A DNA stretch of 30,636 nt from a virus: IMG/VR virus record IMGVR_UViG_3300042890_005395, positions 1 to 30,636 of that record. One strand, given 5' to 3'. This document shows, one piece after another, positions 2,218-28,291 of the stretch; position 1 is the stretch's first letter, and each line of letters starts with the position of its first letter. A program made the position numbers and the translations under genes. The notes under the pieces were generated by a model that saw only the letters and a program-made list of their open reading frames with translations, was not told the origin of the DNA and searched no databases.

Positions 2218-2225
2218 ATATTTAT
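2218..2225 (+). promoter_or_regulatory. ATATTTAT octamer, putative phage promoter
   Basis: ATATTTAT followed by TAAG lies just behind the terminator and 18 nt before the ATG at 2244. It is one of about ten such octamers in gaps before start codons. It would start transcription of the membrane/amidase/spanin operon. Confidence 0.5.
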
Positions 2226-2243
2226 TAAGTATAGTTTAAAGAT

Positions 2244-3350
2244 ATGAATAAAAAATTTTTACCTTGGTTTTTGTTATTTTGTGCAATAGGATTATCAGGA
2301 ACCGCAGCGTATTACAGTGTTATAGGTTTATCTATAATATTTTCGGCAGTTGCCATTCCTGTGATCATTATGGGATCTTTTTTGGAAATATCCAAGATAG
2401 CAATCGCGACGTACTTACATGATAAATGGAAAGAAACTTACGGTATTCTAAAGATATATTTAACAATAGCATTAGTTACTCTTTCAATACTCACATCTGT
2501 AGGAATTTATGGATTATTATCTACAGGATTTCAAAAAAATATCGCAGGACTTGAAATCAATAATAAAAAAATTGAAAACATCGAAGTTAAGAAAAACAGG
2601 TTTGATGAAATAAAGAAAGAATATCAAAAGGAAAAAGATGTGTTGGATAAAGACATAACAAATTTAAGAAATGCACTTTCCACAAATACAACAACTCAGA
2701 CCATTGATAGAACAACGGGTCAAGTAGTTACAAGAGCTAATGGTGGTAATAGAAAGGCTTTCGAAACACAATTAAAAGTTGCTCAAACAAACAGAGATAC
2801 ACTATCAATCAAAATAGAAGCACTAAATGATAGTATAACCAAGTTAGATTTAGAAGTTTTAGATCTCACTTCACAAGAAATTCAATCAGGAGAATTAGGG
2901 GCAATTAAGTATTTAAGTGAAATAACTGGATGGGACGTTAAAAAAACCGCTAATTTTTTTATTCTTACATTAATTTTTGTTTTTGACCCATTAGCTATTG
3001 CATTAGTTATTTCTACTAATCAAGCTTTTAAAAACTATAGAAAAAAAGAAAGTAATGAAATTCACAAAGTTTCTGAACCAAAACCCGAAGTTGTTGAAAA
3101 AATTGTAGAAGTCATCAAAGAAGTGGAAGTACCTGTTCAAGTAATTAAAGAAGTGGAAGTACCCGTCCAAGTAATTAAAGAAGTTGAAAAAATTGTAGAA
3201 GTACCTGTGGAAGTTATAAAAGAAGTGGAAAAAATTGTAGAAGTACCTGTAGAAGTTATAAAAGAAGTTGAAAAAATTGTAGAAGTACCGATTGAAACAA
3301 CGACAGTAGGTGAAAATAATAAAAAAAGATTGGTTTATAAAAAAGAATAA
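2244..3350 (+). CDS. Membrane-anchored coiled-coil protein with a Val-Glu-Pro repeat tail
   Basis: A 368-residue inner-membrane protein. Hydrophobic segments are visible at about 5-25, 27-50, 68-92 and 236-258, the last with the string FVFDPLAIALVIS. Between the third and fourth lies a long coiled coil (about 95-225) with a Thr-rich turn near its middle. The cytoplasmic or periplasmic tail from about 280 consists of repeats of EVEVPVQVIK (two) and EVEKIVEVPVEVIK (two, plus a partial third). The topology resembles DUF4407-type coiled-coil membrane proteins, but I cannot assign a family. It begins the operon that leads into the amidase, sharing one base with the amidase start. A role in lysis timing, superinfection exclusion or membrane remodelling is possible; none is shown. 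Confidence 0.85.
   Translation: MNKKFLPWFLLFCAIGLSGTAAYYSVIGLSIIFSAVAIPVIIMGSFLEISKIAIATYLHDKWKETYGILKIYLTIALVTLSILTSVGIYGLLSTGFQKNIAGLEINNKKIENIEVKKNRFDEIKKEYQKEKDVLDKDITNLRNALSTNTTTQTIDRTTGQVVTRANGGNRKAFETQLKVAQTNRDTLSIKIEALNDSITKLDLEVLDLTSQEIQSGELGAIKYLSEITGWDVKKTANFFILTLIFVFDPLAIALVISTNQAFKNYRKKESNEIHKVSEPKPEVVEKIVEVIKEVEVPVQVIKEVEVPVQVIKEVEKIVEVPVEVIKEVEKIVEVPVEVIKEVEKIVEVPIETTTVGENNKKRLVYKKE
3121..3299 (+). repeat. In-frame tandem repeats of 30 and 42 nt
   Basis: Two 30-nt units (3121-3150 and 3151-3180) are followed by two 42-nt units (3181-3222 and 3223-3264) and a partial third from 3265. Units differ by only a few bases, so the array is young or kept similar by recombination. All lengths are multiples of three, so copy-number change would keep the frame. 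Confidence 0.93.
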
Positions 3351-3943
3351 TGGATATTATAGAATACGGTAATTTCAATACTGAGTTTGTTTCAAACCAA
3401 AAAAAACAAATAATTTTATTACATTCAGGAAGAAATTCTGAAAATTATATAACATCCTTGAAATACAGACATAATGGATCATATAGTAAAATACCTAACT
3501 ATTTTGTTGATCGTGAAGGTAAAGTTGTAAAACTACTTGAGGACAATCAATACTCAAAATTTTTTTATAAAAATGAAATTAACAAGAAGGCAATATTTGT
3601 TTGTTTAGAAAATTTAGGGTGGTTAGAAAAACAACCATTAAAAAATGGATACATAAACTGGATTGGCAATATTTATAATAGTGTTGTTGTACAAAAAAAA
3701 TGGAGGGACTACTACTATTGGCAACCATATACTGAAGAACAATTAAAATCGACTTCAGAACTATGTTTGAAATTATGTAATAATAACTCAATAAAAATCC
3801 AAGTTTTAGGTCACAACACTAAGATAAATGGGATAGAAAATTTTGAAGGAATAGTGACAAGAAGTAATTTTCTAACAGAAATAACCGATCTGAGTCCGGC
3901 TTTCGACTTTGAATTATTTGAAAAACAAATTAAAAATGAATAG
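3350..3943 (+). CDS. N-acetylmuramoyl-L-alanine amidase (Amidase_2/PGRP fold), probable endolysin
   Basis: This 197-residue protein has the layout of a type-2 amidase, which cuts between MurNAc and the stem peptide. The first zinc-ligand strand is IILLHSGRNS (H25), followed by the HNGSYSKIPNYFVDREGKV segment that matches the usual substrate-facing strand. The second histidine is in VLGHNTK (H155), and the third-ligand region reads ITDLSPAFDFELF (D180), close to the common DPG-x-x-F-D-W ending. No signal peptide or wall-binding domain is seen, so export would need a holin or a signal-arrest route not obvious here. It overlaps its upstream neighbour by one base and sits just before two spanin-like genes, which supports a lysis role. 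Confidence 0.88.
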   Translation: MDIIEYGNFNTEFVSNQKKQIILLHSGRNSENYITSLKYRHNGSYSKIPNYFVDREGKVVKLLEDNQYSKFFYKNEINKKAIFVCLENLGWLEKQPLKNGYINWIGNIYNSVVVQKKWRDYYYWQPYTEEQLKSTSELCLKLCNNNSIKIQVLGHNTKINGIENFEGIVTRSNFLTEITDLSPAFDFELFEKQIKNE

Positions 3944-4517
3944 ACACGAAGAAATTAAAAAACTACTTTCAGCATCTAGAACTTTATTAAATAAAGAATC
4001 ACTAAGTGAAAGTACAGAAATACTTGATAAGTATTATGGTTTAATCAAAGAAGATTCAGAAGAAAAAGAATATGAAACGGCTGAGTTAGAAACAGACCTT
4101 GAAAGTGATACGCCTGAAGATAGGAAGTTTGAAAAGAAAAAAACTTATAGAATTTCAGGTGGTTTAATGACAATCAACGCTAAAGATAAAATGGGGTTAC
4201 AACTTACTACAGATGACAAAACCGCATATCAAGAATCGATGGATGAGTTTGTTAGTGAAGTTTCTGAATTAGTAGATTTTAACACTTTGAACCTATATCA
4301 AAACAATGTTGAATGGTCCGGTAAAATACAAGATTTAGATATAGAATTCTTTTTTTCAATTGGAGAAACAAATGGTGTTTATATAAATGGGGACATGATA
4401 AACATAAATGATGAATTTGTTGAGTTCATTGGAAAACTTAGAAGTTACTATGAAAAATTTAAAGCTAAATGGTCAAAGGTTATTGCCAATAGAAAAAAAA
4501 CACCAAGTGAAAAATGA
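3936..4517 (+). CDS. Conserved-looking phage protein of unknown function
   Basis: A 193-residue soluble acidic protein. I chose the ATG at 3936, overlapping the amidase end by 8 nt, over one 27 nt upstream because it gives the usual short overlap and a natural N-terminus (MNRHEEIKKLL). Residues 1-65 are helical and charged. Residues 66-160 alternate strands (KKTYRISGGLMTINAKDKMG and later DLDIEFFFSIGETNGVYING), and the C-terminus is a basic helix. The middle part resembles unnamed proteins I associate with marine T4-like phages, but I cannot attach a function. It lies between the amidase and spanin-like genes and overlaps the next gene by 4 nt. Confidence 0.85.
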   Translation: MNRHEEIKKLLSASRTLLNKESLSESTEILDKYYGLIKEDSEEKEYETAELETDLESDTPEDRKFEKKKTYRISGGLMTINAKDKMGLQLTTDDKTAYQESMDEFVSEVSELVDFNTLNLYQNNVEWSGKIQDLDIEFFFSIGETNGVYINGDMININDEFVEFIGKLRSYYEKFKAKWSKVIANRKKTPSEK

Positions 4518-4867
4518 AAAAGTTTCTGATAAAAAATTATAAAGATGTCTTATTAGTTGTTTTAACTCTGTTATTAACAATCATACTTGTGAAGTTATTC
4601 AGACCGGTAGAAGATAGGTCAGAATTACTCAAGTATAAATTAGAACAACTCGATCAGAACATTAATAAGATGAAGGAATTACAATTAAAGTTGAACGATT
4701 CTATAGTTTCTTATAAAAAAGACATTGAAAAAATAGATCAAAATATATCAAAAATTAAGTTCGAAAAAAATGTAATAAATAATTATTATGAACAGAAAAA
4801 AGAAAAAATAGAAGGTATGGGAAAAAAAGAAATTGACAGCACCTTTAAACAAAGATACAAATATTAA
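4514..4867 (+). CDS. Inner-membrane anchored coiled-coil protein, i-spanin-like
   Basis: A 117-residue protein with one N-terminal membrane segment (about 10-29, VLLVVLTLLLTIILVKLF) and then a continuous coiled coil (about 35-105) with a basic tail. The N-in, C-out topology, the size and the position two genes after an amidase match inner-membrane spanins (Rz-like), which help fuse inner and outer membranes at the last step of lysis in Gram-negative hosts. Families of this kind share topology, not sequence, so this is an inference. Its start overlaps the upstream stop as ATGA, and the next gene, also spanin-like, starts 2 nt after its stop. Confidence 0.75.
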   Translation: MKKFLIKNYKDVLLVVLTLLLTIILVKLFRPVEDRSELLKYKLEQLDQNINKMKELQLKLNDSIVSYKKDIEKIDQNISKIKFEKNVINNYYEQKKEKIEGMGKKEIDSTFKQRYKY

Positions 4868-4869
4868 GT

Positions 4870-5286
4870 ATGAAAAAATTTTTATTTACATTATTTATTT
4901 TTATTTCCTGTCTAAGTTACGGGCAAAAAAATTTACAAAAAGAAGATACGACAACAATATGTTTTCCTGTAAATGTAGGAAAACAAATACTTTTAGACTT
5001 GAACGAATTGGATAGATTGAAAAAACAATCATTAATGGATCAAAAAGAAATTAATCAGTTAGAATCGAAAGTAGAAAAAAAAGATACTATAATTGGGCTG
5101 TTAGAGCTAAAAGATAAAAACAATGAAATAATAATTAAAAATACTGAAGAAAAAGTAAAATTATTGGACGAAGAAAATAAAGAACTTAGAAAGGACATAA
5201 GAAAAATTAAAACAAAAAATACAGTTATAGAAATTGTTTCAGGATCAATAGTTGCGGCATTAACTTACGTATTAGTTTTTAAATAA
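4870..5286 (+). CDS. Exported coiled-coil protein with C-terminal membrane anchor, possible unimolecular spanin
   Basis: A 138-residue protein with an N-terminal signal (MKKFLFTLFIFISCLSYGQ), a region with a single later Cys (TTICFPVNVGKQILLDL), a coiled coil (about 45-118) and a C-terminal hydrophobic helix (IVSGSIVAALTYVLVF). The signal could be read two ways. Signal peptidase I would cut at SYG-Q, common in Bacteroidota. A weak lipobox ending at C14 would give an outer-membrane lipoprotein. In the second case the protein would be tied to both membranes like the unimolecular spanin of phage T1. In the first it would be a periplasmic coil on an inner-membrane anchor. Its place right after the i-spanin-like gene supports a lysis role. 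Confidence 0.75.
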   Translation: MKKFLFTLFIFISCLSYGQKNLQKEDTTTICFPVNVGKQILLDLNELDRLKKQSLMDQKEINQLESKVEKKDTIIGLLELKDKNNEIIIKNTEEKVKLLDEENKELRKDIRKIKTKNTVIEIVSGSIVAALTYVLVFK

Positions 5287-5289
5287 AAA

Positions 5290-6018
5290 ATGGAAGATTG
5301 GAAATCAGAAATACAAAAAAGTTTCTCTGATGTAATCGCTAAGGCTAGAGGTTACGAAGGTGGTGATCAAGTAGATCCTTCTTTAGCTATGCAATCCAAA
5401 AACGAACTATTATCAAACATACAAACAGAAGAAGAAAATGATAATGGTAAAAAAACTCATTATTTAGATTTCTTAAAAAATAAAAGTGAAATTGGTGAAA
5501 TTTACAAACTTATTAAAAACAAAAAATTATCCAATAACAAAATTAAACAAGAAATAAAAAATTACTTGAAAAACCCTGAAGACATAAAAACCTTCTTAGA
5601 AACTATTTTGGATAATAAAAAAACCAAAAAAGAAACTAAGGAAGCCACAGGAACAGGATCTGCTGGTGGATATGAGGCACCTCTTTTTTCTGGCGAAGAA
5701 CCTAAAAAAGTAGAAGCCACTGAAGCAACTGATTCTTCATCATCAGGGTCATACGTTACTACCGCGGCATGGGCTAAATCTTTAAGTAAAAAAGATTGGA
5801 GAGGAAGATCAAAAACACAAATACCTGGAGGAAAATTCGTCCAAGTTAAAAAAAAATGTAAACGTTTCCCATATTGTAATCAGGGTGATATCAAGGCTCT
5901 TAATATTTTTGAAAATAAAACATTGAACGGTGTAATAAAACGAATCAGTGATCGATATCAAATTCATGAAGATATTATAAAAGATATTATCCTGAGTGAA
6001 ATGAATAAACTCCACTGA
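5290..6018 (+). CDS. Probable virion-associated protein, unknown function
   Basis: A 242-residue protein in three parts. Residues 1-115 are charged and helical. Residues 116-165 form a low-complexity linker (ATGTGSAGGYEAPLFSGEEP, then EATDSSSSGSYVTTAAWAKS). The remainder is basic and contains KKKCKRFPYCNQGDIKAL and a helical end. Ser/Gly/Thr linkers of this type with YEAPLF-like strings are something I associate with structural proteins of marine tailed phages, but the exact role is unknown. The Cys pair (KCKRFPYC) could bind metal. It starts 3 nt after the spanin-like gene, and the next gene has its own putative promoter, so it ends this operon. Confidence 0.82.
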   Translation: MEDWKSEIQKSFSDVIAKARGYEGGDQVDPSLAMQSKNELLSNIQTEEENDNGKKTHYLDFLKNKSEIGEIYKLIKNKKLSNNKIKQEIKNYLKNPEDIKTFLETILDNKKTKKETKEATGTGSAGGYEAPLFSGEEPKKVEATEATDSSSSGSYVTTAAWAKSLSKKDWRGRSKTQIPGGKFVQVKKKCKRFPYCNQGDIKALNIFENKTLNGVIKRISDRYQIHEDIIKDIILSEMNKLH

Positions 6019-6022
6019 TCAT

Positions 6023-6030
6023 ATATTTAT
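6023..6030 (+). promoter_or_regulatory. ATATTTAT octamer, putative phage promoter
   Basis: ATATTTAT followed by AATA lies 15 nt before the ATG at 6046 and 4 nt after the upstream stop codon. It is the same octamer as at 2218, 12641, 20049 and 26098. Confidence 0.5.
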
Positions 6031-6045
6031 AATAAAAACAAAAAA

Positions 6046-7476: not shown

Positions 7477-7502
7477 TTTACATAATTTTATATTACCGTA
7501 TA

Positions 7503-8033: not shown

Positions 8034-8048
8034 CTATAATATTTAAAA

Positions 8049-8219: not shown

Positions 8220-8220
8220 T

Positions 8221-11526: not shown

Positions 11527-11534
11527 ATAAATAG
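11527..11534 (-). promoter_or_regulatory. CTATTTAT octamer, putative phage promoter (minus strand)
   Basis: On the minus strand CTATTTAT is followed by TACTA and then ATG at 11521. The 5-nt gap equals that at 19776-19783 and 26098-26105, which would put the transcription start near the ATG. Confidence 0.5.
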
Positions 11535-11783: not shown

Positions 11784-12623
11784 ATGTTAAGTTATATCGG
11801 AGGTAAAAGTAAAATCGGGAAATGGATTGTTCCTTATTACGATAAAAATATGGAGGTTTATTTAGAAACTTTCGGAGGAATGTTTTGGTGTTTCTATAAT
11901 ATGGATCTAAAACAATTCCCCAGACTTAAAAAAGTTGTATACAATGACTTCAACCCACTAAACTATAATCTATTTAAATGTGTTCAAAATCCAACTGAAT
12001 TATTAAGGGCAATAAACAATATTGATTGTCAAAAACAAGGAGTAGATAATACCCCTGAAATATATAAACAACAGTTTATAAGCTTTCAGGCTGAATTATT
12101 TAATGAAGGTTTCAGCTTAGAACCTGGCAATTATGAAGTCGCGGCTAAGTATGTTTACATTTTAACACAGGTTTTCAGTGGATCAAAACCTGAAACATCA
12201 AACTTTATTGACCTTAAAGGAAAATATAAATCGAAATATCTTACGTTTAGAGATAAGTTGTCTAAACCTGATTGGGTGGATCACTTTTTAAAAATTACAG
12301 ATGTTGAAAATATGGATTTTGCGGACGTGATACAAAAATACGATTCACCATCTACGTACATTTATTTGGACCCACCATATTGGAAAACAGAAAACTATTA
12401 TTCCAATCATGATTTCGATAGACAAGACCATGAAAGATTGGCAAACGTATTACACAAAGTCCAGAGTAAGTTTTCTCTATCATACTATGATTTCGAACTA
12501 CTTCACAATTGGTTTCCTGAAGATCAATATACTTGGGTCAGAAAAGAATTTGCAAAAGCCGCCGCAGCAAAGAAAGGTGAAAAACAAAACATGGGTGAAG
12601 AATTACTTATTATGAATTATTAA
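11784..12623 (+). CDS. DNA adenine N6-methyltransferase, Dam-like (D12 class)
   Basis: A 279-residue Dam-type enzyme. Motifs run in alpha-class order: the SAM-binding start SYIGGKSKIGKWI (3-15), then ETFGGMFW (28-35), YNDFNPLNY (53-61), and the catalytic DPPYW with D196-P-P-Y199. The target-recognition region lies between. No restriction enzyme is adjacent, so it is an orphan methylase, most likely protecting phage DNA from host nucleases or marking replicated DNA. The recognition site cannot be read from the sequence. The gene stands alone in a plus-strand run, with an A+T-rich leader and no clear consensus promoter. The C-terminus has an alanine-rich patch (KAAAAKKGEK). Confidence 0.94.
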   Translation: MLSYIGGKSKIGKWIVPYYDKNMEVYLETFGGMFWCFYNMDLKQFPRLKKVVYNDFNPLNYNLFKCVQNPTELLRAINNIDCQKQGVDNTPEIYKQQFISFQAELFNEGFSLEPGNYEVAAKYVYILTQVFSGSKPETSNFIDLKGKYKSKYLTFRDKLSKPDWVDHFLKITDVENMDFADVIQKYDSPSTYIYLDPPYWKTENYYSNHDFDRQDHERLANVLHKVQSKFSLSYYDFELLHNWFPEDQYTWVRKEFAKAAAAKKGEKQNMGEELLIMNY

Positions 12624-12640: not shown

Positions 12641-12648
12641 ATATTTAT
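12641..12648 (+). promoter_or_regulatory. ATATTTAT octamer, putative phage promoter
   Basis: ATATTTAT followed by TAATA lies 13 nt before the ATG at 12662, in the 38-nt gap after the Dam-like gene. Confidence 0.5.
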
Positions 12649-14902: not shown

Positions 14903-14933
14903 TTTGTTTTTATTGAAAAAACGTTTATCTTTG
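14903..14933 (+). promoter_or_regulatory. Host-type (Bacteroidota sigma-A) promoter for the DUF932 gene
   Basis: TTTG (14903-14906), 19 nt, then TATCTTTG (14926-14933). Both boxes match the Bacteroidota consensus. The leader to the ATG at 14956 is A-rich. This predicts expression by unmodified host polymerase, that is, early in infection. Confidence 0.85.
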
Positions 14934-15755: not shown

Positions 15756-16097
15756 ATGACAAATACTAAAGAACTTTTTGATAAAGAAACTGAGTTTCTA
15801 AAATCTATTTATGATAGGGAAGGAAAAATATTATCAAAAAACAGAATCCAAGGTCAATTAAATGTCACACCCGAAATTCTTTTAGAAAAAAACTATAAAC
15901 CAGAATATCTTAATATGTACACTTATGAAAATGGTGTTTCTTTTATAGATGCAATTTTTCGTAACAAGTCTGACATTTTCATATATTTATCTAAAAAGAT
16001 AGCTGTAGACTCGGGATATCAAATAATGATTTATTTTGAACCAGAAAAACTAGAAGAAACTAAATTCTTTGTAAAAAACTTAATAAAATTAAAATAA
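15756..16097 (+). CDS. Unknown small protein
   Basis: A 113-residue protein starting MTNTKELFDKETEFLKSIYD. It is mixed helix and strand with a basic middle (SKNRIQGQLNVTPEI) and an aromatic stretch (YKPEYLNMYTYENGVSFIDA), ending in a Lys-rich helix. No family is recognised. It follows the DUF932 terminator and precedes thioredoxin by 7 nt, so it probably leads the small redox operon. Confidence 0.78.
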   Translation: MTNTKELFDKETEFLKSIYDREGKILSKNRIQGQLNVTPEILLEKNYKPEYLNMYTYENGVSFIDAIFRNKSDIFIYLSKKIAVDSGYQIMIYFEPEKLEETKFFVKNLIKLK

Positions 16098-16104: not shown

Positions 16105-16419
16105 ATGGAAATTACCGCAACTGAACTTAAAGAAAAAATAGAATCAGGTAAAAAAATTATTGTTGAATTTTGGGCTGAATGGTGTGGTCCCTGTAAAATG
16201 ATGAAACCTAGATTTGAAAAAGTATCAAATGAAAATGAAACTGACGTGGAAATGTACACCATGAATGTTGATCAAAATAAAGACATAAGTGTTTCACTTG
16301 GCATTAGAAGTATCCCCACAGTTAAAATTATTAATGGTGGTAAAGTTGTTGAAACAAAAGTTGGGGTTTTAGAAGAAGGGGACATTAAAAATTTAGTTAA
16401 AGAATTATTATTGAATTGA
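16105..16419 (+). CDS. Thioredoxin
   Basis: A 104-residue thioredoxin of normal length. The active site is WCGPCK with C27 and C30, in the expected IIVEFWAEWCGPC strand-helix context, and the cis-proline is P71 (IRSIPTVKII). It is cytoplasmic (no signal) and would reduce protein disulfides with host thioredoxin reductase. In phages it can also serve ribonucleotide reductase or act as a polymerase processivity partner; neither partner is in the window. It is part of a compact thioredoxin-lipoprotein-glutaredoxin group. Confidence 0.96.
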   Translation: MEITATELKEKIESGKKIIVEFWAEWCGPCKMMKPRFEKVSNENETDVEMYTMNVDQNKDISVSLGIRSIPTVKIINGGKVVETKVGVLEEGDIKNLVKELLLN

Positions 16420-16420
16420 T

Positions 16421-16573
16421 ATGATTAAAGTAGTCTTAACATTTTTTATTTTACTATTTTTGTTTTCATGTAAAACCAGTAAAAGTAGTTGCGATGCTTA
16501 TGGAAGCAATGATGATCATAAAAGAATTTACAAATATGAAAATTCATCTAAAATAATACAAAACAGTAAGTAA
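16421..16573 (+). CDS. Small predicted lipoprotein between two redox genes
   Basis: A 50-residue protein. Its N-terminus, MIKVVLTFFILLFLFSCKTS, is a hydrophobic signal ending in a lipobox-like FLFSC. The mature part would be about 34 residues with a second Cys (SSCDAYGSNDD) and a charged tail ending QNSK. It starts 1 nt after the thioredoxin stop and its stop overlaps the glutaredoxin ATG (TAATG), so the three genes are translationally linked. It could be an outer- or inner-membrane surface lipoprotein, for example for superinfection immunity. The Bacteroidota export signal S-D-D-E is not obvious after the Cys. Confidence 0.75.
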   Translation: MIKVVLTFFILLFLFSCKTSKSSCDAYGSNDDHKRIYKYENSSKIIQNSK

Positions 16574-16860
16574 TGGATAAGTTGGTTGTAGTTTACAGTA
16601 TGGTTGGTTGTCCTTTTTGTACAGAGTTAAAAGAAATGTTAGACAAGGAAGATCTAAATTACGTTGATAGAGATATTGACAAATATAAAGATGAATATGA
16701 TATTTTTGTTGAAATTACTGAAAACGAATATGTACCGGCATTTATGACCATTTTAGATCCTGATTCAGAAAGACCAAAAACAAAACTATATGCTCCTGAC
16801 AGAGATTTTGATGACTTAGAAGAAGGTCTTAAAATAATCAAAAACTTTTATGAAGAATAA
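16573..16860 (+). CDS. Glutaredoxin-like protein
   Basis: A 95-residue glutaredoxin-fold protein with a C13-P-F-C16 active site (MVGCPFCTELKEML) and the cis-proline segment EYVPAFM (V54-P55). The typical glutaredoxin GG near the C-terminus is replaced by an acidic stretch (YAPDRDFDDLEEG), so the glutathione contact may differ. A role as electron donor for ribonucleotide reductase is common for phage glutaredoxins, but no reductase is present here. Last gene of the redox group; a bidirectional terminator follows directly. Confidence 0.9.
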   Translation: MDKLVVVYSMVGCPFCTELKEMLDKEDLNYVDRDIDKYKDEYDIFVEITENEYVPAFMTILDPDSERPKTKLYAPDRDFDDLEEGLKIIKNFYEE

Positions 16861-16892: not shown

Positions 16893-17586
16893 AAATTAAT
16901 ATTACGTGTTCTAACATATCTTGAATCAAGTATGGTTTTTCTTTGTTTTGAGTTAACAGATCCTCAAACAAATTATAATTATTAATTCTTTCGTTAAATT
17001 TATCTAAATCAAAATCGAATACATCTAAAATCAAAGATTTGATTTTTTCTTTGGGTATATTTGAATTTGAAATTATGTCAATATCAAAGTCTTCATCACT
17101 ATTAAGTTTTTTGGTAAAATAAAATTCCAAATTATTTACACCTAACAAATTATACATGTGGTTAAACATATAGTTTGAATAATAAACTATAGACCGACCA
17201 CAATTCAAACTATGTCCATAAGGAAATTCAGACACTGTAAATAGATTTGTCACAGGTTCAGACTTACTTGTGAAAACATTTTTATCTAAAGAAATCCAAA
17301 CATCTTCCAAAACATCAAAATCTGATCCATACGAAAGTAAATCAATAATATTCATATGGTCTACGTTTGCATCTTCTAATTCGGACGAATATTCTTTGAA
17401 GAATTCTTCTTTTATTTTTTGTAAATCCAAGATATCTTTGCTTGAACTTTTACCCGAAACAACAACAAAATTTATGCAATCACATACTTGAATTATACTT
17501 TTTTCTGACTTGTTAATTTTTGATAAAATGTAGTCAGAAAATAAATTTACAATAAATCTTTTTGTTTTTTTATTTATTAATCTCAT
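16891..17586 (-). CDS. Unknown minus-strand protein; faint S-adenosylmethionine synthetase N-domain resemblance
   Basis: A 231-residue protein with a basic start (MRLINKKTKRFIVNLFSDY). Residues about 32-60 read VCDCINFVVVSGKSSSKDIL, followed by DLQKIKEEF. This resembles the first domain of S-adenosylmethionine synthetase (a valine strand, then G-x-x-[ST]-[ST], then D-[IL]-x-x-I), but the catalytic signatures of that enzyme are not visible, so it is at best a distant or partial relative. A later segment has CGRSIVYYSNYMFNHMYNLL, and the C-terminus is acidic. It is the last gene of a minus-strand run and ends at a bidirectional terminator. Function should be treated as unknown. Confidence 0.8.
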   Translation of the reverse strand: MRLINKKTKRFIVNLFSDYILSKINKSEKSIIQVCDCINFVVVSGKSSSKDILDLQKIKEEFFKEYSSELEDANVDHMNIIDLLSYGSDFDVLEDVWISLDKNVFTSKSEPVTNLFTVSEFPYGHSLNCGRSIVYYSNYMFNHMYNLLGVNNLEFYFTKKLNSDEDFDIDIISNSNIPKEKIKSLILDVFDFDLDKFNERINNYNLFEDLLTQNKEKPYLIQDMLEHVILI

Positions 17587-17627
17587 AATATATTTTTTTA
17601 CAATTGATATGAGATTTATTTGATATT

Positions 17628-17635
17628 ATAAATAG
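17628..17635 (-). promoter_or_regulatory. CTATTTAT octamer, minus strand
   Basis: On the minus strand CTATTTAT (17635 to 17628) is followed by AATATC. It lies in the gap between the upstream gene's stop and the ATG at 17586, but 41 nt from the ATG, farther than the other sites, so it is a weaker candidate. Confidence 0.35.
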
Positions 17636-18631
17636 TTAATAGACGTAATCTAAAAATGCATCATTAAGGTATTGTTTAACTCTATAAGAATCGGAATATT
17701 CTGAAGTTCTAAAACTTAAAAAATCACCACAATATTCAAAGTATCTAGTTAACATATCTAAATAAGATCTTTCGTCATATATATTATACTCATAATCACT
17801 CATACAATTAAAATAATCATATAGATCTGACTTTAAATTTTTAATTTTACACAATAAGTATTGTTTTTTATTTTCGTCTTGATCCCACTTAAATTCTGTA
17901 TCAATTAAACTTCTTAGTTCATTTTTAATATCTTCATATACCTCATCGTTCCAAGCTTCGTTATATGCCATATTATGTAAACTTCTTAGATTACTTCGTA
18001 ATTCGTCTAAATAACCAGAATTAATTAGTTCATTGAAAACTTTACGATCCGATAAAACATAGTTTATATTGTTATAATTGATAGTAACATAACCTTCTTC
18101 ATTTGAGTTTTCAGAGAAAAAATTTCCACCAAACTCATCAGAATCCATATTTTGATTCTTTAAATCTCTAAGTATTATTTCCTTTAACTCATTTAAATTT
18201 TTTTCATTTAGTTCTTCTACAACATCATCATAATAATTATAAATTGTATCAGAAAACATCTCGAACCAATCTTCATCTAAAATTCCATTTGCAATTTCTC
18301 TATTTGAAATATTTCTATAATCACTATCATCAAACAAAACGGATAACTCAACTAATTTGTTTAATTTAAGGTAATAGTCACCCCCAATTTTTTTAACATC
18401 CCCAAGAAGAGGTAAAAAATACTCAACACCATATTCTTTTAGAAGACTAATACAAAGTTGGTTAAGAAAACTATTATCATCTGACTCCCGATAAACGGAG
18501 TATAAATCAACTTTATTCAATTTACCAATACCTTTTATGTATGAAATGAATCTTTCTACCGACTTAAATATAGGCTCAATCCTTTCCCACTTACCGGTAT
18601 TGAAAGTATCTATTAATTCATTAGTTGTCAT
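17636..18631 (-). CDS. Unknown acidic protein, paralogue of its upstream neighbour
   Basis: A 331-residue acidic, Tyr/Asn/Asp-rich protein starting MTTNELIDTFNTGKWERIEP. It shares with the neighbour at 18628 a similar N-terminus (FKSVERFISYI against FKSTRNFLSFL), a middle segment (VFNELINSGYLDELRSNLRS against AFNELCNKDLDELGSNLTS, both followed by helices rich in A, N and E) and the same ending (SFRTSEYSDSYRV against DFRVPEYPDWNRT, then L-x-x-x-F-x-D-Y-V). The two are therefore diverged tandem duplicates. The start overlaps the upstream stop by 4 nt. No enzyme motif is visible. Very acidic proteins of this sort in phages are sometimes DNA mimics, but the Lys content here makes that doubtful. 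Confidence 0.85.
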   Translation of the reverse strand: MTTNELIDTFNTGKWERIEPIFKSVERFISYIKGIGKLNKVDLYSVYRESDDNSFLNQLCISLLKEYGVEYFLPLLGDVKKIGGDYYLKLNKLVELSVLFDDSDYRNISNREIANGILDEDWFEMFSDTIYNYYDDVVEELNEKNLNELKEIILRDLKNQNMDSDEFGGNFFSENSNEEGYVTINYNNINYVLSDRKVFNELINSGYLDELRSNLRSLHNMAYNEAWNDEVYEDIKNELRSLIDTEFKWDQDENKKQYLLCKIKNLKSDLYDYFNCMSDYEYNIYDERSYLDMLTRYFEYCGDFLSFRTSEYSDSYRVKQYLNDAFLDYVY

Positions 18632-19775: not shown

Positions 19776-19783
19776 ATAAATAC
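19776..19783 (-). promoter_or_regulatory. GTATTTAT octamer, putative phage promoter (minus strand)
   Basis: On the minus strand GTATTTAT is followed by GATAT and the ATG at 19770. It sits directly after the T tract of the upstream terminator, an arrangement also seen at 2182-2225. Confidence 0.5.
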
Positions 19784-20011: not shown

Positions 20012-20019
20012 ATAAATAT
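20012..20019 (-). promoter_or_regulatory. ATATTTAT octamer, putative phage promoter (minus strand)
   Basis: On the minus strand ATATTTAT (20019 to 20012) is followed by AAATA and lies 31 nt before the ATG at 19980. It shares the divergent 82-nt gap with the plus-strand octamer at 20049. Confidence 0.42.
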
Positions 20020-20048: not shown

Positions 20049-20056
20049 ATATTTAT
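20049..20056 (+). promoter_or_regulatory. ATATTTAT octamer, putative phage promoter
   Basis: ATATTTAT followed by GATTGT ends 6 nt before the ATG at 20063, so the transcript may be leaderless or nearly so. Confidence 0.5.
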
Positions 20057-20062
20057 GATTGT

Positions 20063-21592: not shown

Positions 21593-21619
21593 TCTTTACT
21601 GCCAAGTAATTTATTGTTA

Positions 21620-21627
21620 TAATTTTG
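21620..21627 (+). promoter_or_regulatory. Possible host-type -7 box, leaderless spacing
   Basis: TAATTTTG fits TAnnTTTG and ends exactly 4 nt before the ATG at 21632, the same gap as at 28967 and 29363. The -33 box is weak (TTTA about 21 nt upstream), so this call is less certain than the others. Confidence 0.4.
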
Positions 21628-21631
21628 TCAG

Positions 21632-22402: not shown

Positions 22403-22403
22403 A

Positions 22404-24175: not shown

Positions 24176-24222
24176 AAAAGTTGAAATCAGAAATTATTTA
24201 TCGAGTAATTTTTTTTATAATC

Positions 24223-24285
24223 ATGATTGGTACTATAACTTTGACATGGACTTTAATATACAAGTTAATAAAAATAATTTTTTAA
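24223..24285 (+). CDS. Possible 20-residue membrane peptide
   Basis: A frame of 20 residues (MIGTITLTWTLIYKLIKIIF) fills the gap after the membrane gene and ends 1 nt before the methyltransferase ATG. A TTG at 24181 in the same frame would extend it to 34 residues. A TTATTTAT string lies at 24193-24200. The hydrophobic helix and tight spacing suggest a real small gene, but the size makes this uncertain; the gap may simply be a leader. Confidence 0.35.
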   Translation: MIGTITLTWTLIYKLIKIIF

Positions 24286-24286
24286 A

Positions 24287-25135
24287 ATGATAGAAACAGG
24301 AAAAATAATAAATGGGGATTGTGTGGAAGTAATGAAGACACTACCTGAAGGATGTATTGATTTGGTGGTAACATCTCCCCCATATGGTGTTGGAATTGAC
24401 TATGACGTACATAATGATGACATGGAATTTAATGATTATGTTGAATTTGCAAAGTCATGGTTAACAGAAACATATAGAGTATTGAAAGATGATGGAAGAA
24501 TTGCTCTTAATATACCATATGAGATCAATCGTCAAAAAAAAGGTGGTCGTATATTTTTTGTTTCAGAAATATGGCAAATTATGAAAGAAATTGGTTATGG
24601 TTTCTTTGGTATTGTTGATTTAGAAGAACAATCACCACACAGAAGTAAAACCACAGCTTGGGGTTCATGGATGAGCCCATCGTCACCATACATTTATAAC
24701 CCTAAAGAATGTGTAATATTGGCTTACAAGAAAAAACACATCAAGAAAGTTAAAGGTGAACCTGAATGGACCGGTGAATTAACAGAAATTGAAAATGAAG
24801 ATGGGACAAAAAGAAACAAAATGGTTTATGAAGATAAAGACAAAAAAGAATTTATGGAACTTGTCTTCGGTCAGTGGAATTATTTTGCTGACACTAAATC
24901 TCTCACTAAAGCAACCTTCTCTATGGACATCCCGACCAAGGCAATCAAAATATTGTCATATAAGAACGATATAATATTAGATCCCTTTGCTGGAAGTGGA
25001 ACAACTTTGGTTGCCGCTCAAGTGTTAGGAAGAAATTGGTTAGGTATAGAATTAAGTCCAAACTATTCAGAAATTGCAAAAACAAGGGTAGAATATTTCA
25101 AAACCTTGGAACAAATAAAAGAAATAGAGTTTTAA
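24287..25135 (+). CDS. Site-specific DNA methyltransferase (N4-cytosine or N6-adenine, beta class)
   Basis: A 282-residue enzyme with the two amino-methyltransferase signatures. The catalytic motif IV is T29-S-P-P-Y33 (VVTSPPYGVGIDY) and the SAM-binding motif I is DPFAGSGTT starting at D232. Motif IV before motif I gives the beta-class order; TSPPY in place of DPPY is common in this class and occurs in both N4-cytosine and N6-adenine enzymes. The middle region (residues 130-205) would hold target recognition. No restriction endonuclease is adjacent, so this is the second orphan methylase in the window, besides the Dam-like one. A terminator follows. Confidence 0.94.
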   Translation: MIETGKIINGDCVEVMKTLPEGCIDLVVTSPPYGVGIDYDVHNDDMEFNDYVEFAKSWLTETYRVLKDDGRIALNIPYEINRQKKGGRIFFVSEIWQIMKEIGYGFFGIVDLEEQSPHRSKTTAWGSWMSPSSPYIYNPKECVILAYKKKHIKKVKGEPEWTGELTEIENEDGTKRNKMVYEDKDKKEFMELVFGQWNYFADTKSLTKATFSMDIPTKAIKILSYKNDIILDPFAGSGTTLVAAQVLGRNWLGIELSPNYSEIAKTRVEYFKTLEQIKEIEF

Positions 25136-25137
25136 GT

Positions 25138-25163
25138 AAACCCCCTTAAATGGGGGTTTTTTT
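25138..25163. terminator. Terminator between convergent genes
   Basis: AAACCCCC (25138-25145) pairs with GGGGGTTT (25152-25159) around a TTAAAT loop, with a T run on the plus strand. The TTAAATGGGGG portion is identical to that of the terminator at 2182-2210. It separates the methyltransferase from the minus-strand transglycosylase gene. Confidence 0.9.
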
Positions 25164-25701
25164 ATTGTAATGAAATCCATTTAGATTTATAATCTAAATT
25201 GGTGGCACAATATCTACCATAGTCATTTACAACTGGCCTACCTGTATTGTACCAACCACAAACAATTGACCAATTACCATACTTTTTGTGCAAGTAATTA
25301 AGAAGTTTCATACTTGTCATGACATTTAATTCTAAATCAGACATTATTTTATTTTTACTGTAGTTTGAATTGTTGATCCAATTACAAGTTTTTGGTAAAA
25401 CTTGCATCGGACCAACAGCTCCAACAGAAGAAACCTGATTCGGATTGTAATTCCAATGAAACGGTCCCATATATCTTGTTTCTTTAAACGCAACATTGTA
25501 GGCGATGTATTTTGGAACTGAATATTCATCAGAATATTTTTCTATTAAATCAAAAAGAACCATAGAACTAAATTGTTTAGTTTTGAAATTACTTTTGTTG
25601 TCTAATGGTTTGTAATCGTTGGAAAAACTATCGAATGAAAATGAAAAATATATCAAAAATGAACAAAAAAGTCCGTAATAAAAAACTGTTTTTATCTTCA
25701 T
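25162..25701 (-). CDS. Lytic transglycosylase (SLT fold), membrane-anchored or exported
   Basis: A 179-residue protein with an N-terminal hydrophobic segment (about 6-24, VFYYGLFCSFLIYFSFSF) acting as signal or anchor. The SLT domain covers about 52-175. The catalytic Glu is E74 in VAFKETRYMGP, followed by the conserved SSVGAVGPMQVLPKT (G94-x-x-G-P-M-Q100) and the later WYNTGRP (Y151-N-T-G). It would cut the MurNAc-GlcNAc bond with 1,6-anhydro product. In a phage this is either a peptidoglycan-penetrating enzyme or a second lysis factor. It is separated by 1 nt from the upstream membrane gene and shares its promoter. Cys residues in the domain could form a disulfide. Confidence 0.9.
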   Translation of the reverse strand: MKIKTVFYYGLFCSFLIYFSFSFDSFSNDYKPLDNKSNFKTKQFSSMVLFDLIEKYSDEYSVPKYIAYNVAFKETRYMGPFHWNYNPNQVSSVGAVGPMQVLPKTCNWINNSNYSKNKIMSDLELNVMTSMKLLNYLHKKYGNWSIVCGWYNTGRPVVNDYGRYCATNLDYKSKWISLQ

Positions 25702-25702
25702 A

Positions 25703-26020
25703 CTATTTTTCCGATTTGACTATAACATTTCTGGCGTACATATTAAAAATTGCAACACCAATTGAATCTTCATAAACAGTGTAATTACCATTATTCTTAT
25801 CAATTATGATTAAGTGGTTATTTTCATCAATTGCCAAATTAACCTGTGACTTGTCCAAAGAAATCATTTCTATGGTTGGTGATTTGGGACCATAAATTCT
25901 GTGGTAAAGATAACCAACAGAAAACCCACTAACAATGGAAAGTGAAAGTACAGTTATGACTGTGACTTTTTTGATCATTGGTTTTGAATTCTCGATTAAA
26001 GCTTTGATTTTTTCTTTCAT
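25703..26020 (-). CDS. Single-pass membrane protein, unknown function
   Basis: A 105-residue protein with a basic N-terminus (MKEKIKALIENSKPMIKKVT), one membrane helix (about 21-40, VITVLSLSIVSGFSVGYLYH) and an extracytoplasmic strand-rich domain (IYGPKSPTIEMISLDKSQVN, then LAIDENNHLIIIDKNNGNYT). It precedes the lytic transglycosylase by 1 nt, and a perfect host-type promoter lies 27 nt upstream, so the pair is probably expressed early and together. A role in regulating or positioning the transglycosylase is a reasonable guess from this pairing. No family is recognised. Confidence 0.82.
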   Translation of the reverse strand: MKEKIKALIENSKPMIKKVTVITVLSLSIVSGFSVGYLYHRIYGPKSPTIEMISLDKSQVNLAIDENNHLIIIDKNNGNYTVYEDSIGVAIFNMYARNVIVKSEK

Positions 26021-26046
26021 AATATATTTTTTTTATTGGTTTGATA

Positions 26047-26078
26047 CAAATATAATAATTTTATCAACAATTTACAAA
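26047..26078 (-). promoter_or_regulatory. Host-type (Bacteroidota sigma-A) promoter, minus strand
   Basis: On the minus strand TTTG (26078-26075), 20 nt, then TATATTTG (26054-26047). Both boxes and spacing match the consensus. It drives the membrane protein/transglycosylase pair and is divergent from the octamer promoter at 26098. Confidence 0.85.
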
Positions 26079-26097
26079 ATTTAATCTTCAACAATCG

Positions 26098-26105
26098 ATA
26101 TTTAT
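26098..26105 (+). promoter_or_regulatory. ATATTTAT octamer, putative phage promoter
   Basis: ATATTTAT followed by GTTAT and the ATG at 26111, a gap of 5 nt. It faces away from the host-type promoter at 26047-26078, so one short gap holds one promoter of each class. Confidence 0.5.
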
Positions 26106-26110
26106 GTTAT

Positions 26111-27493
26111 ATGAAAAAAGGAATATTAGTAGAATCAGGAATTAGGGACATTAAAAAGCTTGCTGATAGATACAAAAAGGCTAAAATTTATTTTCATCAA
26201 GATTTGGATGGTGTAACTACTGCAATTGCTATGAAAGAATATTTGGAAGATAATGGTATTGACGTTGTTGACGCCGAAATAATACAATATGGTGATAAAG
26301 AATTTGCAATAAAAAAACTTGACGCTGAAGGTGATACGATGCCGGTTTTGGTTGATTTTGCCCACGGAAAACCAATGTTTGTAATTCACACAGATCACCA
26401 TGATACACAAGCTGGTGTAGAAAAAGGAACATCTACATCATTCAAAAGTTCAAGGTCTAACGTTGAAACAATATCTCAAAGTTTATCACCTAAAGAAATT
26501 TTTACACAAGAAGACATAACGTTAATATCAACTGTTGATTCTGCAAATTTTGCTCAATACAATATATCAGTTGACGATGTAATGAAGTATATTTTCAAAT
26601 TAGATAAGAATTCTGATGTTAAAAGAAATAAAATGTTGTTAGGATTAGTTGCTAATAAATTACTTTTAGCGTTCAAAAATAAACCCGGATTTCTTGAAGA
26701 ATTAGTATTAGACTGTAAACCATCGTTACTGAATATTTTATTAAAGATCAAATCAATTATGAAACGAGAAGGTTTTGATGATGAAGAAAAACTCACACAA
26801 AATCAACAGGCCTACATCCAAAATATGAATGTTAGCCCCAACGTTAATGTTAGCGGTAACATATTAGTTCAATACGGAGGTGGATACATGACACCACAAG
26901 GTTCATATGATAGATATACACCATTTAAAAACAATCCAGACGCTGATTTTTTAGTAATTGCATGGCCGTTGGGATTAGTTCAAGCATCATGTAACCCATA
27001 CAAAAAAGAACGAGCACTTAAGGGTGTTGATTTGGGTGAAATCAAAAATGAAGTATTGGATGAAATGAATCCAGAATTACAAAGTATTATTGTACCATTA
27101 TCAGTTTTGAAAAGAATATCTGAAACAAAAGCAACCTTCAAGTCTGTTGGTTTTACATTTAAGGATTTTATGGCAATTTATGGTAACAGTCCATCTTTGA
27201 AAGTTTTGGGTAGAAAAGAAAGTTTATTCCCAATATTGGATAACATAATGAATAGACCTTACAGAAAACTAAGTGAAAAACAAATTGCTTTATTAGATAA
27301 AGTTGTACTAAATGGTAGAGATATCATAAATGCAAATTCTGGGGGACATAAATGTATTACCAATATTTCAGGTATTAGTTTTCTTTACAGAAAAAAAGAT
27401 GGTGGAGAACAAAAAAGTTATGTAGATTTAACAAAGCAGATACAAAGTAAGTTTTACGAAATTTTACAGGCAAAAATCAGTTCTGAAAAATAA
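26111..27493 (+). CDS. DHH/DHHA1 family phosphoesterase
   Basis: A 460-residue protein with the DHH signature set. Motif I is HQDLDG with D31 and D33. A metal-binding Asp follows in VLVDFAHG (D82). The DHH triad is TDHHDT with D95-H96-H97, and a further Asp lies in ISTVDSANF. A GGH typical of DHHA1 occurs at 411-413 (ANSGGHKCIT). Such enzymes use Mn2+ to cut phosphodiester bonds in single-stranded DNA (RecJ), short oligonucleotides (NrnA) or cyclic dinucleotides. The protein is longer than NrnA, with a 200-residue middle insert of unknown role. Degrading host nucleotides or signalling cyclic dinucleotides (anti-CBASS) would both be plausible; the sequence cannot choose. Confidence 0.9.
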   Translation: MKKGILVESGIRDIKKLADRYKKAKIYFHQDLDGVTTAIAMKEYLEDNGIDVVDAEIIQYGDKEFAIKKLDAEGDTMPVLVDFAHGKPMFVIHTDHHDTQAGVEKGTSTSFKSSRSNVETISQSLSPKEIFTQEDITLISTVDSANFAQYNISVDDVMKYIFKLDKNSDVKRNKMLLGLVANKLLLAFKNKPGFLEELVLDCKPSLLNILLKIKSIMKREGFDDEEKLTQNQQAYIQNMNVSPNVNVSGNILVQYGGGYMTPQGSYDRYTPFKNNPDADFLVIAWPLGLVQASCNPYKKERALKGVDLGEIKNEVLDEMNPELQSIIVPLSVLKRISETKATFKSVGFTFKDFMAIYGNSPSLKVLGRKESLFPILDNIMNRPYRKLSEKQIALLDKVVLNGRDIINANSGGHKCITNISGISFLYRKKDGGEQKSYVDLTKQIQSKFYEILQAKISSEK

Positions 27494-27824
27494 TTTCGTC
27501 ACCTTCATTTATGTTATATTTTTTACATTCACCACCTGGTAATTCTAAAACAATATCGCCATTTCCATTATATGTCTGACACTTACCTTGATTACATGGT
27601 TTACAATTGTGATGAATTTTAGTTATAACATCTTCATTTATAAAAATAATATCAAGTGGTATAATACAATTTTTCATCCAAAAGGAGTGATCCCTACCGT
27701 CTAACATGAATAACATACCATCAAAGTCTTCATCAAATTTTTTATTCATCATACCATTTGAAATATCTTTATTTGTCAATGCCGACTTGACCCTATAACT
27801 ATTATTATTTATTACTATGTTCAT
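27477..27824 (-). CDS. DUF192 family protein
   Basis: A 115-residue protein fitting DUF192: NGMMNKKFDEDFDGMLFMLD, DHSFWMKNCIIPLDIIFINE, then ILELPGG-like VLELPGGECKKYNINEGDEI. The family normally has the same GMM, WMKNT, PLD and GD strings and a small beta fold; its function is unsettled. Cellular members are often exported, but here there is no signal peptide. A Cys pair (CKPCNQGKC) is inserted before the LEL strand. Its 3' end overlaps the DHH gene's end by 17 nt. Its start codon sits at the edge of a palindromic octamer site shared with the Nudix gene. Confidence 0.92.
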   Translation of the reverse strand: MNIVINNNSYRVKSALTNKDISNGMMNKKFDEDFDGMLFMLDGRDHSFWMKNCIIPLDIIFINEDVITKIHHNCKPCNQGKCQTYNGNGDIVLELPGGECKKYNINEGDEIIFQN

Positions 27825-27836
27825 ATTTATAAATAT
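27823..27836. promoter_or_regulatory. Perfectly palindromic octamer site between divergent genes
   Basis: ATATTTATAAATAT is a perfect 14-bp palindrome carrying ATATTTAT on both strands. Plus: the octamer ends 12 nt before the Nudix ATG at 27843. Minus: it ends 4 nt before the DUF192 ATG at 27824, which overlaps the palindrome edge. One site may therefore fire in both directions. Confidence 0.55.
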
Positions 27837-27842
27837 TGTATT

Positions 27843-28265
27843 ATGAAAGAATTCAAAAGGTATTCGGGTATTGTTATAAAAAAAGGTAATGAAGTTTTAC
27901 TATGTAAAAGAAGCCCAAAAAATTCCTTACCTAATGAATGGTCCATTCCATCAGGAGGTATGGAAGGAAAAGAAACGCCAAAAGAAACCGCAATCAGGGA
28001 ATTCAAGGAAGAAACAAATATTCAAATAAAAGGGGAATTAAAGTTAGTCGACATACTTAACCTGTATGAGGATGAAGATACAAAAAAAGGTTTAATGTAT
28101 ATTTTTCTTCATGAAACAAATAGATATGTGTTTCCTGAACTTGAATCAGCAAAAGATGGTCATGAACACACAGAATGTGGGTACTTCAACTTAAAAAACA
28201 ATCCTATAAGTAAAAAAAATCAAGAATTTGGTAAAATAATTACAAATATTTTGAAAAAATATTGA
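27843..28265 (+). CDS. Nudix hydrolase
   Basis: A 140-residue Nudix protein. The Nudix box is intact, G38-x5-E44-x7-R52-E53-F-K-E56-E57-T (GGMEGKETPKETAIREFKEE), in a MutT-like context (KRYSGIVIKKGNEVLLCKRS). It would hydrolyse a nucleoside diphosphate linked to another moiety, for example an oxidised or alarmone nucleotide, ADP-ribose or an NAD cap; T4 NudE is a known phage example. The substrate cannot be read from the box. It starts from the bidirectional octamer site and is followed by a 160-nt gap that holds a candidate small RNA. Confidence 0.94.
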   Translation: MKEFKRYSGIVIKKGNEVLLCKRSPKNSLPNEWSIPSGGMEGKETPKETAIREFKEETNIQIKGELKLVDILNLYEDEDTKKGLMYIFLHETNRYVFPELESAKDGHEHTECGYFNLKNNPISKKNQEFGKIITNILKKY

Positions 28266-28283
28266 TTTTTACCAATTTATCAC

Positions 28284-28291
28284 ATATTTAT
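28284..28291 (+). promoter_or_regulatory. ATATTTAT octamer without a downstream gene
   Basis: ATATTTAT followed by TTAACA stands 19 nt after the Nudix stop. The only unit it could drive before the terminator at 28348-28386 is a short untranslated RNA. Confidence 0.4.

Follow-up and report, generated by a model that had tools for sequence, protein, structure and literature searches.

Short A/T-rich octamers recur a few bases before gene starts on both strands of a viral DNA stretch of 30,636 bases (an IMG/VR virus record, hereafter the window), and the question raised by this locus is what they do there. A first-pass annotation had proposed that the octamer, ATATTTAT with a variable first base, marks a phage-specific promoter class. 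Along its entire length the window matches positions 98,922-129,557 of a 290,887-base IMG/VR contig, G001, with 99.993% identity (window positions become G001 positions by adding 98,921), and G001 together with the phage contigs G003, G004 and G005 constituted our main set of about 875 called genes. The lineage is that of T4-type jumbo phages of Bacteroidota, viruses of lakes. Judging from the sequences, the octamers very likely represent a real phage promoter class, as indicated by their placement, orientation, absence from operon-internal starts and conservation. We further consider it probable that the octamer is a -10-type element of a phage-sigma-dependent, presumably mostly late class of promoters giving messenger RNAs (mRNAs) with a minimal leader or none at all.

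The octamer is over-represented in the window as such: TATTTAT occurs 42 times as compared to 26.1 expected, a number reached in 0 of 100 shuffles, and ATATTTAT occurs 18 times as compared to 8.2 expected (18 was reached in one of 100 shuffles). To describe its placement we use the gap, i.e. the number of nucleotides (nt) between the octamer and the ATG, and distinguish a near class (gap of 4-7 nt) and a far class (12-18 nt). With these gaps, eight [A/G/C]TATTTAT sites precede the 44 called genes of the window and one is found in the antisense orientation, while the same upstream regions dinucleotide-shuffled 1000 times contain a mean of 0.26 sites and a maximum of three; the gap ranges were picked after seeing G001, which includes the window, so this particular test is not independent. 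Across G001, 69 such sites lie before 319 genes, compared to five antisense sites and a mean of 1.6 (maximum seven) in 300 shuffles. An unbiased search for 8-mers in the 30 nt before starts, which does not depend on the chosen gap ranges, identified ATATTTAT as the most over-represented 8-mer in all four phage contigs; motif discovery against controls, suggested by the first-pass annotation as a check, thus places the octamer at the top of the list each time. The genes concerned number 58, 39, 19 and 20 in G001, G003, G004 and G005, respectively (5.3, 4.0, 2.5 and 2.4 expected; 6, 6, 2 and 3 antisense). The next 8-mer of G001 not overlapping ATATTTAT is TATCTTTG, a host -7 element. Copies of ATATTTAT occur within genes too, as had been pointed out before, and might be taken to mean that the octamer is a mere product of chance in A+T-rich DNA; such an explanation is contradicted by the shuffle, antisense, backward-pattern and permuted-gap controls alike, and its probability is negligible. 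The placement of the octamer is far beyond chance.

The gaps fall into two separate peaks. Exact octamers of the four contigs lie 0-3, 4-7, 8-11, 12-18 and 19-52 nt from the ATG in 0, 62, 4, 61 and 28 cases, and if gaps were uniform over 0-18 nt, finding just four of 127 in the 8-11 zone would have a probability of about 5e-9. No other A/T-only 8-mer is as frequent at the 4-7 gap or has as large an excess of 4-7 over 8-11 gaps. The pattern recurs in dereplicated sets of loci, which in part overlap the four contigs: counts for gaps 4-7, 8-11 and 12-19 are 12, 1 and 33 among 599 genes near the RpoD-like sigma gene of the window and its relatives, 28, 3 and 31 (antisense 3, 3 and 9) among 621 genes near a second sigma-like gene introduced below, and 41, 4 and 68 (antisense 5, 5 and 17) in the joint set of 1244 genes. 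(The 599 genes were dereplicated by a greedy rule; a single-linkage rule over-merged, leaving 90 clusters from 1804 genes, and was discarded.) A check on the same four contigs that does not rely on gene calls gave 81 matches at gap 4-7 against 11 for the backward pattern, and 12 against 12 at gap 8-11. The box is strict, exact copies at gaps of 4-7 and 13-16 nt numbering 112 over a background of 5.3. Its first position is the most variable one, G being found 19 times (2.0 in the background) and C ten times (2.7), and T being avoided (four as compared to ten); the form ATATTTGT, seen nine times at octamer gaps over a background of 0.7, is probably the host-type box TATATTTG followed by T. The individual gap values in the first-pass annotation were right, as were the octamer positions on both strands, but their two-peaked distribution, which suggests leaderless or mini-leader mRNAs, had been missed.

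A further regularity is found downstream of the box. In the far class, the bases 5-8 past the octamer are A in 82-97% of the 61 sites, and the A fraction at these positions (.885) exceeds that obtained with gaps permuted (.782, standard deviation.019) in a manner seen in 0 of 2000 permutations; it is the octamer, rather than the ATG, that fixes the position of the A-run. In the near class, the A of the ATG itself occupies the same places past the octamer. Since the far-class A-run and the near-class ATG coincide there, RNA synthesis is likely to start, in both classes, at an A located some 5-7 nt beyond the box. Transcripts of Flavobacterium johnsoniae begin 4-5 nt past the -7 element (PMC6847099). 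The mechanism that we propose is that the host RNA polymerase carrying a phage sigma factor would bind the octamer with no need for a recognisable -35 element, and would initiate on that A. An ATG 4-7 nt from the octamer would then yield a leaderless or nearly leaderless mRNA, which is the likely nature of the near class, and an ATG 12-18 nt away would yield a leader of 7-13 nt beginning with A's, likely the hallmark of the far class; leaders of about 3-6 nt would be avoided, presumably on account of poor translation.

The proximity of the octamer to the ATG could alternatively mean that it functions as a translation signal in the mRNA. The octamer, however, precedes none of the 288 genes that start at most 5 nt from the preceding gene on the same strand, and we reject a translational role primarily for this reason. 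The gap is moreover two-peaked rather than fixed; a terminator-like repeat can precede the octamer (in the four contigs, upstream of 11 of 62 near-class, three of 61 far-class and 24 of 752 other genes); and at 27823-27836 a divergent gene pair has overlapping sites. A translation signal is accordingly very improbable in our judgement. As for other promoter elements, column frequencies across the 62 near and 61 far sites revealed no -35 box upstream of the octamers, the only other upstream feature being patches of A/T alone, located 13-16 and about 6-9 bases from the octamer.

The octamer is conserved where its surroundings are not. Among 25 dereplicated upstream regions of orthologues of gene 2244, 21 keep VTATTTAT 14-19 nt before the start within diverged flanks. 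As to the genes served, octamers in G001 lie before the genes for the terminase (13 nt) and the prohead protease (14 nt), the gene preceding the capsid gene (19 nt) and the capsid gene (41 nt). A scan of the genes of G001 with an exact octamer (53 of 54, one having crossed a tile border; 25 PHROG families listed of 33) adds, among the listed virion and lysis families, a gp25-like and another baseplate wedge protein, a minor head protein, a head-tail adaptor, portal, head protease and an endolysin/M23 protein. Late timing of the octamer class is plausible.

Several observations weigh against this reading and should be mentioned together. The box is missing from four of the 25 gene 2244 orthologues. 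Of the 134 exact copies in G001, 78 have no called start on their own strand in the next 20 nt, and some octamer genes fall outside the peaks, the capsid gene (41 nt) and its neighbour (19 nt) included. The dereplicated sets exhibit an antisense spike at exactly 14 nt (seven of 621 genes and 11 of 1244), perhaps due to divergent gene pairs. The gene starts are calls made in this analysis. Exact-octamer genes of G001 also include non-virion ones, encoding superoxide dismutase, a NUDIX protein, a rhamnosyl transferase, a starvation-type regulator and several proteins of unknown function, and family matches recognised no virion gene among the window's own octamer genes.

The sites and other features referred to are listed in table 1. 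The octamer at 27829-27836 is a ninth window site standing outside the placement count given above, as the gene caller had set the start of the respective gene at 27752 rather than 27824. Three weaker cases included in the first-pass annotation do not fit the class: the box near 15756, TTATTTAT, has T as the first base, which is depleted, and a gap of 9 nt, in the nearly empty 8-11 zone; the box near 17586 is 41 nt upstream; and for the one near 28284 the next ATG start (28426) is 134 nt away.

Table 1. Octamer sites, host-type -7 boxes and candidate sigma genes (window coordinates unless G001 is indicated).
Feature	Position	Strand	Remarks
Octamer ATATTTAT	2218-2225	+	18 nt to ATG 2244; far class
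Octamer ATATTTAT	6023-6030	+	15 nt to ATG 6046; far class; AATAAAAACAAAAAA next
Octamer CTATTTAT	11527-11534	-	5 nt to ATG 11521; near class
Octamer ATATTTAT	12641-12648	+	13 nt to ATG 12662; far class
Octamer GTATTTAT	19776-19783	-	5 nt to ATG 19770; near class
Octamer ATATTTAT	20012-20019	-	31 nt to possible ATG 19980; gap outside both peaks, doubtful member
Octamer ATATTTAT	20049-20056	+	6 nt to ATG 20063; near class
Octamer ATATTTAT	26098-26105	+	5 nt to ATG 26111; near class
Octamer ATATTTAT	27823-27830	+	12 nt to ATG 27843; far class; overlaps minus-strand octamer
Octamer ATATTTAT	27829-27836	-	4 nt to ATG 27824; near class; divergent partner of 27823-27830
Host-type -7 box TATCTTTG	14926-14933	+	22 nt to ATG 14956
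Host-type -7 box TAATTTTG	21620-21627	+	4 nt to ATG 21632
Host-type -7 box TATATTTG	28955-28962	+	4 nt to ATG 28967; overlaps listed start 28952
Host-type -7 box TATCTTTG	29351-29358	+	4 nt to ATG 29363
RpoD-like sigma gene	925-1725	+	regions 1.2, 2 and 4 match; region 3 unmatched, shortened relative to Bacteroidota primary sigmas
Second sigma-like gene	G001:270535-271284	-	249 amino acids; outside the window

The phages carry a second, host-type class of promoters as well. Promoters of the Bacteroidota primary sigma factor (sigmaA) have a -7 element, TAHHTTTG, with a near-invariant T at -12 and G at -5, as stated by Baez 2019 (PMC6847099), and F. johnsoniae promoters have A/T patches at -28 and -18 (same source). 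It might thus be asked whether the octamer is simply a variant -7 element read by the host primary sigma. ATATTTAT is one base away from the ATATTTGT form of TAHHTTTG plus T, and the A/T patches lying about one and two turns upstream of it resemble those described for F. johnsoniae (PMC6847099). The octamer followed by an ATG at 4-7 nt exceeds the backward control 1.8-3.6 fold in eight of ten Bacteroidota genomes (it equals the control in the remaining two), so mild use of the octamer by the host polymerase is possible. In the phages, however, the ratio to the control is 6.6-10, and the density of octamer-ATG combinations in G001 is about 8-40 times that of the hosts. The near-invariant T-12 and G-5 of host promoters are not kept, and promoters matching the strict host pattern precede none of the 123 octamer genes as compared to 41 of 752 others, i.e. 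the two strict patterns exclude each other. Reading by the host sigma is for these reasons improbable as the general explanation, and we retain the phage-sigma-dependent one. No exclusion is seen with a loose host pattern (five genes with both, about seven expected), the loose octamer pattern also admitting ATATTTGT, a form that is probably host-type for the most part.

In G001, the genes behind the 20 promoters of the strict host pattern lie between 87.9 and 244.3 kilobases (kb). Among the proteins of units behind host-type boxes (43 of 44 scanned; 25 families listed of 50), there are matches to families of DNA methyltransferases, RNA ligases, nucleotide kinases and epimerases, and one to a minor tail protein. 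The operon of the RpoD-like sigma gene of the window has a host-type TAHHTTTG promoter, not an octamer. Gene 392, located just before the sigma gene, is preceded by TAHHTTTG in 26 of 27 dereplicated relatives (16-25 nt from the ATG in 25 and 48 nt in one) and by VTATTTAT in none; the exception represents the window's own type, in which the next gene upstream (G001 98434) has a TATCTTTG box before it. The spacing of the host-type boxes in the four contigs is reminiscent of that of the octamers: TAHHTTTG is found 4 nt before the ATG 17 times, at 5-8 nt 12 times, at 9-13 nt never and at 14-25 nt 24 times, which makes 29 sense occurrences at 4-8 nt as compared to nine antisense ones (nine more are antisense at 9-13 nt). 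Since host-type boxes also peak 4 nt before the ATG in these contigs, leaderless placement may be a habit of the phages extending to both promoter classes; in the joint set of 1244 genes, though, this near peak is small (11 at 4-7 nt as compared to 15 antisense) and unconvincing when taken alone. Within the window, the real start of the open reading frame listed at 28952 is probably ATG 28967, which would give a leaderless message.

Inspection of the window by eye identified two DNA methyltransferase-like genes, at 11784-12623 and 24287-25135, the latter fitting a member of the host-type set that matches N6_N4_Mtase. A search with window DNA 1-25000 found no close relative in the annotated phage collection; the sole near match, of 76.9% across some 150 bases inside the 11784 methyltransferase-like gene, was to LR756502.1:573328-573480, from an uncultured phage of 642 kb. 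Translations examined by eye also point to small thioredoxin-like and glutaredoxin-like genes located close together at 16105-16860.

Which factor might read the octamer? An RNA polymerase of the phage's own was considered as well and rejected, PF00562 having matched in none of eight contigs. The first-pass annotation regarded the RpoD-like sigma of the window as an obvious candidate reader, and it does remain one candidate, but it is not the only one, because G001 encodes a second sigma-like protein. The RpoD-like protein acting with the host core polymerase is a possibility of substance, although we would put it at clearly less than even chances. Its region 4 matches over the cut-off in eight of nine contigs of at least 170 kb, and the protein is 79-100% identical across the 80 loci retained. 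The host-type box before the preceding gene of its operon is what an early regulator could have, and its region 3 segment is shortened relative to host primary sigmas. The conservation and the early-type promoter both speak for this protein as the reader. Its cellular relatives (80 retained of 585) come mostly from Bacteroidota and allied phyla, with 38-44% identity; an AlphaFold2 model of it was poor (predicted local distance difference test, pLDDT, 51.8) and was not used. On the other hand, region 2 retains a host-like FISYAVWW..QS stretch, and the host sigma reads TAHHTTTG; region 4 is retained, yet the octamer promoters have no -35/-33 box. The 187-kb contig G023 has 30 near-gap octamers as compared to three but no region-4 match over the cut-off. 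Such a match is missing from eight of 14 contigs reached via the second sigma, seven of which are 126-158 kb long and all of which may be fragments; among these 14, it is present in six of the seven of at least 170 kb and in none of the seven shorter ones.

We slightly favour the second sigma-like protein as the reader, a tentative choice that falls just short of an even bet. The strictness of an octamer lacking a -35 element speaks for it. Its 36 aligned relatives have a mean column identity of 76%. The protein likely has a sigma-like region 2: its AlphaFold2 model (mean pLDDT 75.6, predicted template modelling score 0.47) superimposes on region 2 of E. coli sigmaE (4lup; VIA-align Z 9.4, 2.2 A, 91 residues) and on T4 gp55 (7d7c; Z 9.3, 3.1 A, 102 residues). 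VIA-align was run on the top chains from Foldseek; these two alignments stand near the top, and all 50 rows listed belong to sigma-factor or polymerase-sigma entries, although middling Z values can be non-specific for helical domains. Sigma70_r2 matches 15 of the 36 relatives, with a best E of 0.011. Sequence and structure searches speak against this candidate: phrog_234 was hit at E 2.8e-4, but seven of 14 control genomes match it too at E up to 1; no PHROG was matched at 0.01; hhalign gave 6% for the comparison with gp55; in a search of PDB, an unrelated chain (E 0.18) outranked gp55 (E 0.21); and the best Foldseek E was 0.067. Because the match to the gp55 family is weak, we keep the odds between the two sigmas close. 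The distribution of the two proteins does not separate them. In G003 (223 kb), octamers occur together with the RpoD-like sigma and no gp55-like protein is found among the called genes, and G023 is the reverse case; both contigs may be fragments. The upstream neighbours of the gp55-like gene in G001 display almost no conserved promoter of either class. A short sigma resembling the extracytoplasmic function (ECF) type, with matches to regions 2 and 4, is encoded in G003 (17573-18151, minus strand) 5 nt behind an octamer, which suggests a sigma cascade.

The head genes of G001 form a T4-type cluster on the plus strand (terminase 252234, portal 254249, prohead protease 257574, major head protein 260464), and a gene for the ribosomal protein bS21 lies within it on the opposite strand (G001:256837-256986, minus; PF01165 E 6.9e-7, over the cut-off). 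The octamer is absent from the 70 nt upstream of all seven phage bS21 genes inspected (the G001 gene and loci L301-L307). Five of them have TAHHTTTG and, right after it, a conserved stretch recognised by eye, TGATATATATCA or TAATATATATCAA, which looks like an operator near the start site. A more speculative idea, which we regard as unlikely but worth stating, is that translation is split: the phage sigma would make leaderless and A-leader mRNAs, and ribosomes carrying the phage bS21 would favour such 5' ends late in infection, leaderless mRNAs from host-type boxes being part of the same proposal. If true, this would supply the missing mark by which bS21 ribosomes tell phage from host mRNA, and so a candidate answer to the question raised for bS21 phages as to which mRNA feature bS21 could select.

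To our knowledge, Bacteroidota are a phylum without Shine-Dalgarno sites, and leaderless late mRNAs are predicted here in such a phylum. The closeness of the octamer to the start codon points to a phage-controlled gene switch and to an unusual mode of translation start. The octamer class amounts to a precise, testable promoter map for a lineage of Bacteroidota lake phages, in which start sites are predicted with an accuracy of a few bases. Two candidate phage sigma factors come to light with it, and their specificities could be separated in vitro; the octamer might also supply an orthogonal promoter for Bacteroidota genetics.

Among titles and abstracts of the open-access literature, subscription papers being outside the scope, we encountered no description of this class or of ATATTTAT as a phage promoter. 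There is precedent for leaderless mRNA in phages, the AR9 paper (PMC5312081) remarking that phage transcripts are often leaderless. For leaderless genes of bacterial and archaeal genomes, Zheng 2011 (PMC3160421) reports a TA-like signal some 10-12 bp upstream of the start, and names Bacteroidetes among the clades with many 'atypical' genes; the likeness lies in a -10-type box near the ATG and a missing or very short leader, whereas here a single phage-typical box is employed and there is a second, A-leader class. In F. johnsoniae, 87% of transcripts with a probable promoter have leaders longer than 10 nt (PMC6847099). What the octamer class shares with the Bacteroidota sigmaA promoters are the upstream A/T patches and a (here predicted) start a few nucleotides downstream, and the phages carry this host class too; the octamer differs in being nearly invariant and in the absence of T-12 and G-5 (positions 7-8 are A and T, and the preceding base is free).

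Freshwater Bacteroidetes phages encoding bS21, with genomes of up to 331 kb, are described by Chen 2022 (PMC9723584), and the phage studied here belongs with them; G001 shares with those phages the reverse-strand bS21 gene within the terminase-portal-protease-capsid cluster. There, bS21 and the core structural cluster are said not to form one operon in transcription, the possible units being the protease with its downstream gene and the capsid gene with its upstream gene (PMC9723584). The separate octamers before 257574 and 258639 would fit such units. The words promoter, sigma and leaderless have no occurrence in the main text of Chen 2022 (PMC9723584). With respect to promoters, one of the systems closest in kind is that of phage T4.

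The T4 late promoter has the consensus TATAAATA at the -10 position and is read by gp55, with gp33 and gp45 taking part as co-activator and sliding clamp. The first-pass annotation had called the octamer similar but not identical to it, which is correct, and the likeness is in fact closer than stated, TATTTAT and TATAAAT agreeing at five of seven positions on the same strand and differing at two central bases. An alternative idea, that the octamer is the reverse complement of the T4 late box, was dropped, as the same-strand alignment explains the invariant T and A. The resemblance extends to the A/T octamer in the putative -10 role, the lack of a conserved -35 element (also a property of T4 late promoters; PMC7892883) and the placement before head and tail genes: terminase, prohead protease, major head protein and a gp25-like baseplate wedge protein are T4-type virion genes behind octamers in G001, together with non-virion genes. 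In the T4 genome the box is similarly strict, with 17 exact copies no farther than 60 nt from a called start and 0-4 per single-mismatch form, but 12 of these 17 lie 23-29 nt before the ATG and none at 4-7 nt, unlike the gaps of 4-7 or 12-18 nt observed here. TATAAATA in the sense orientation forms no peak before starts in the four contigs like that of the octamer, so the T4 consensus itself is not what these phages use. A point less in favour of the comparison is that PF02916, which matched T4, found no gp45 clamp in seven phage contigs, a search that distant clamps may escape and that did not extend to gp33; the phages also differ from T4 in encoding an RpoD-like sigma. By analogy, the octamer class probably works in the manner of T4 late promoters with a different box, but we refrain from filing it as T4 late.

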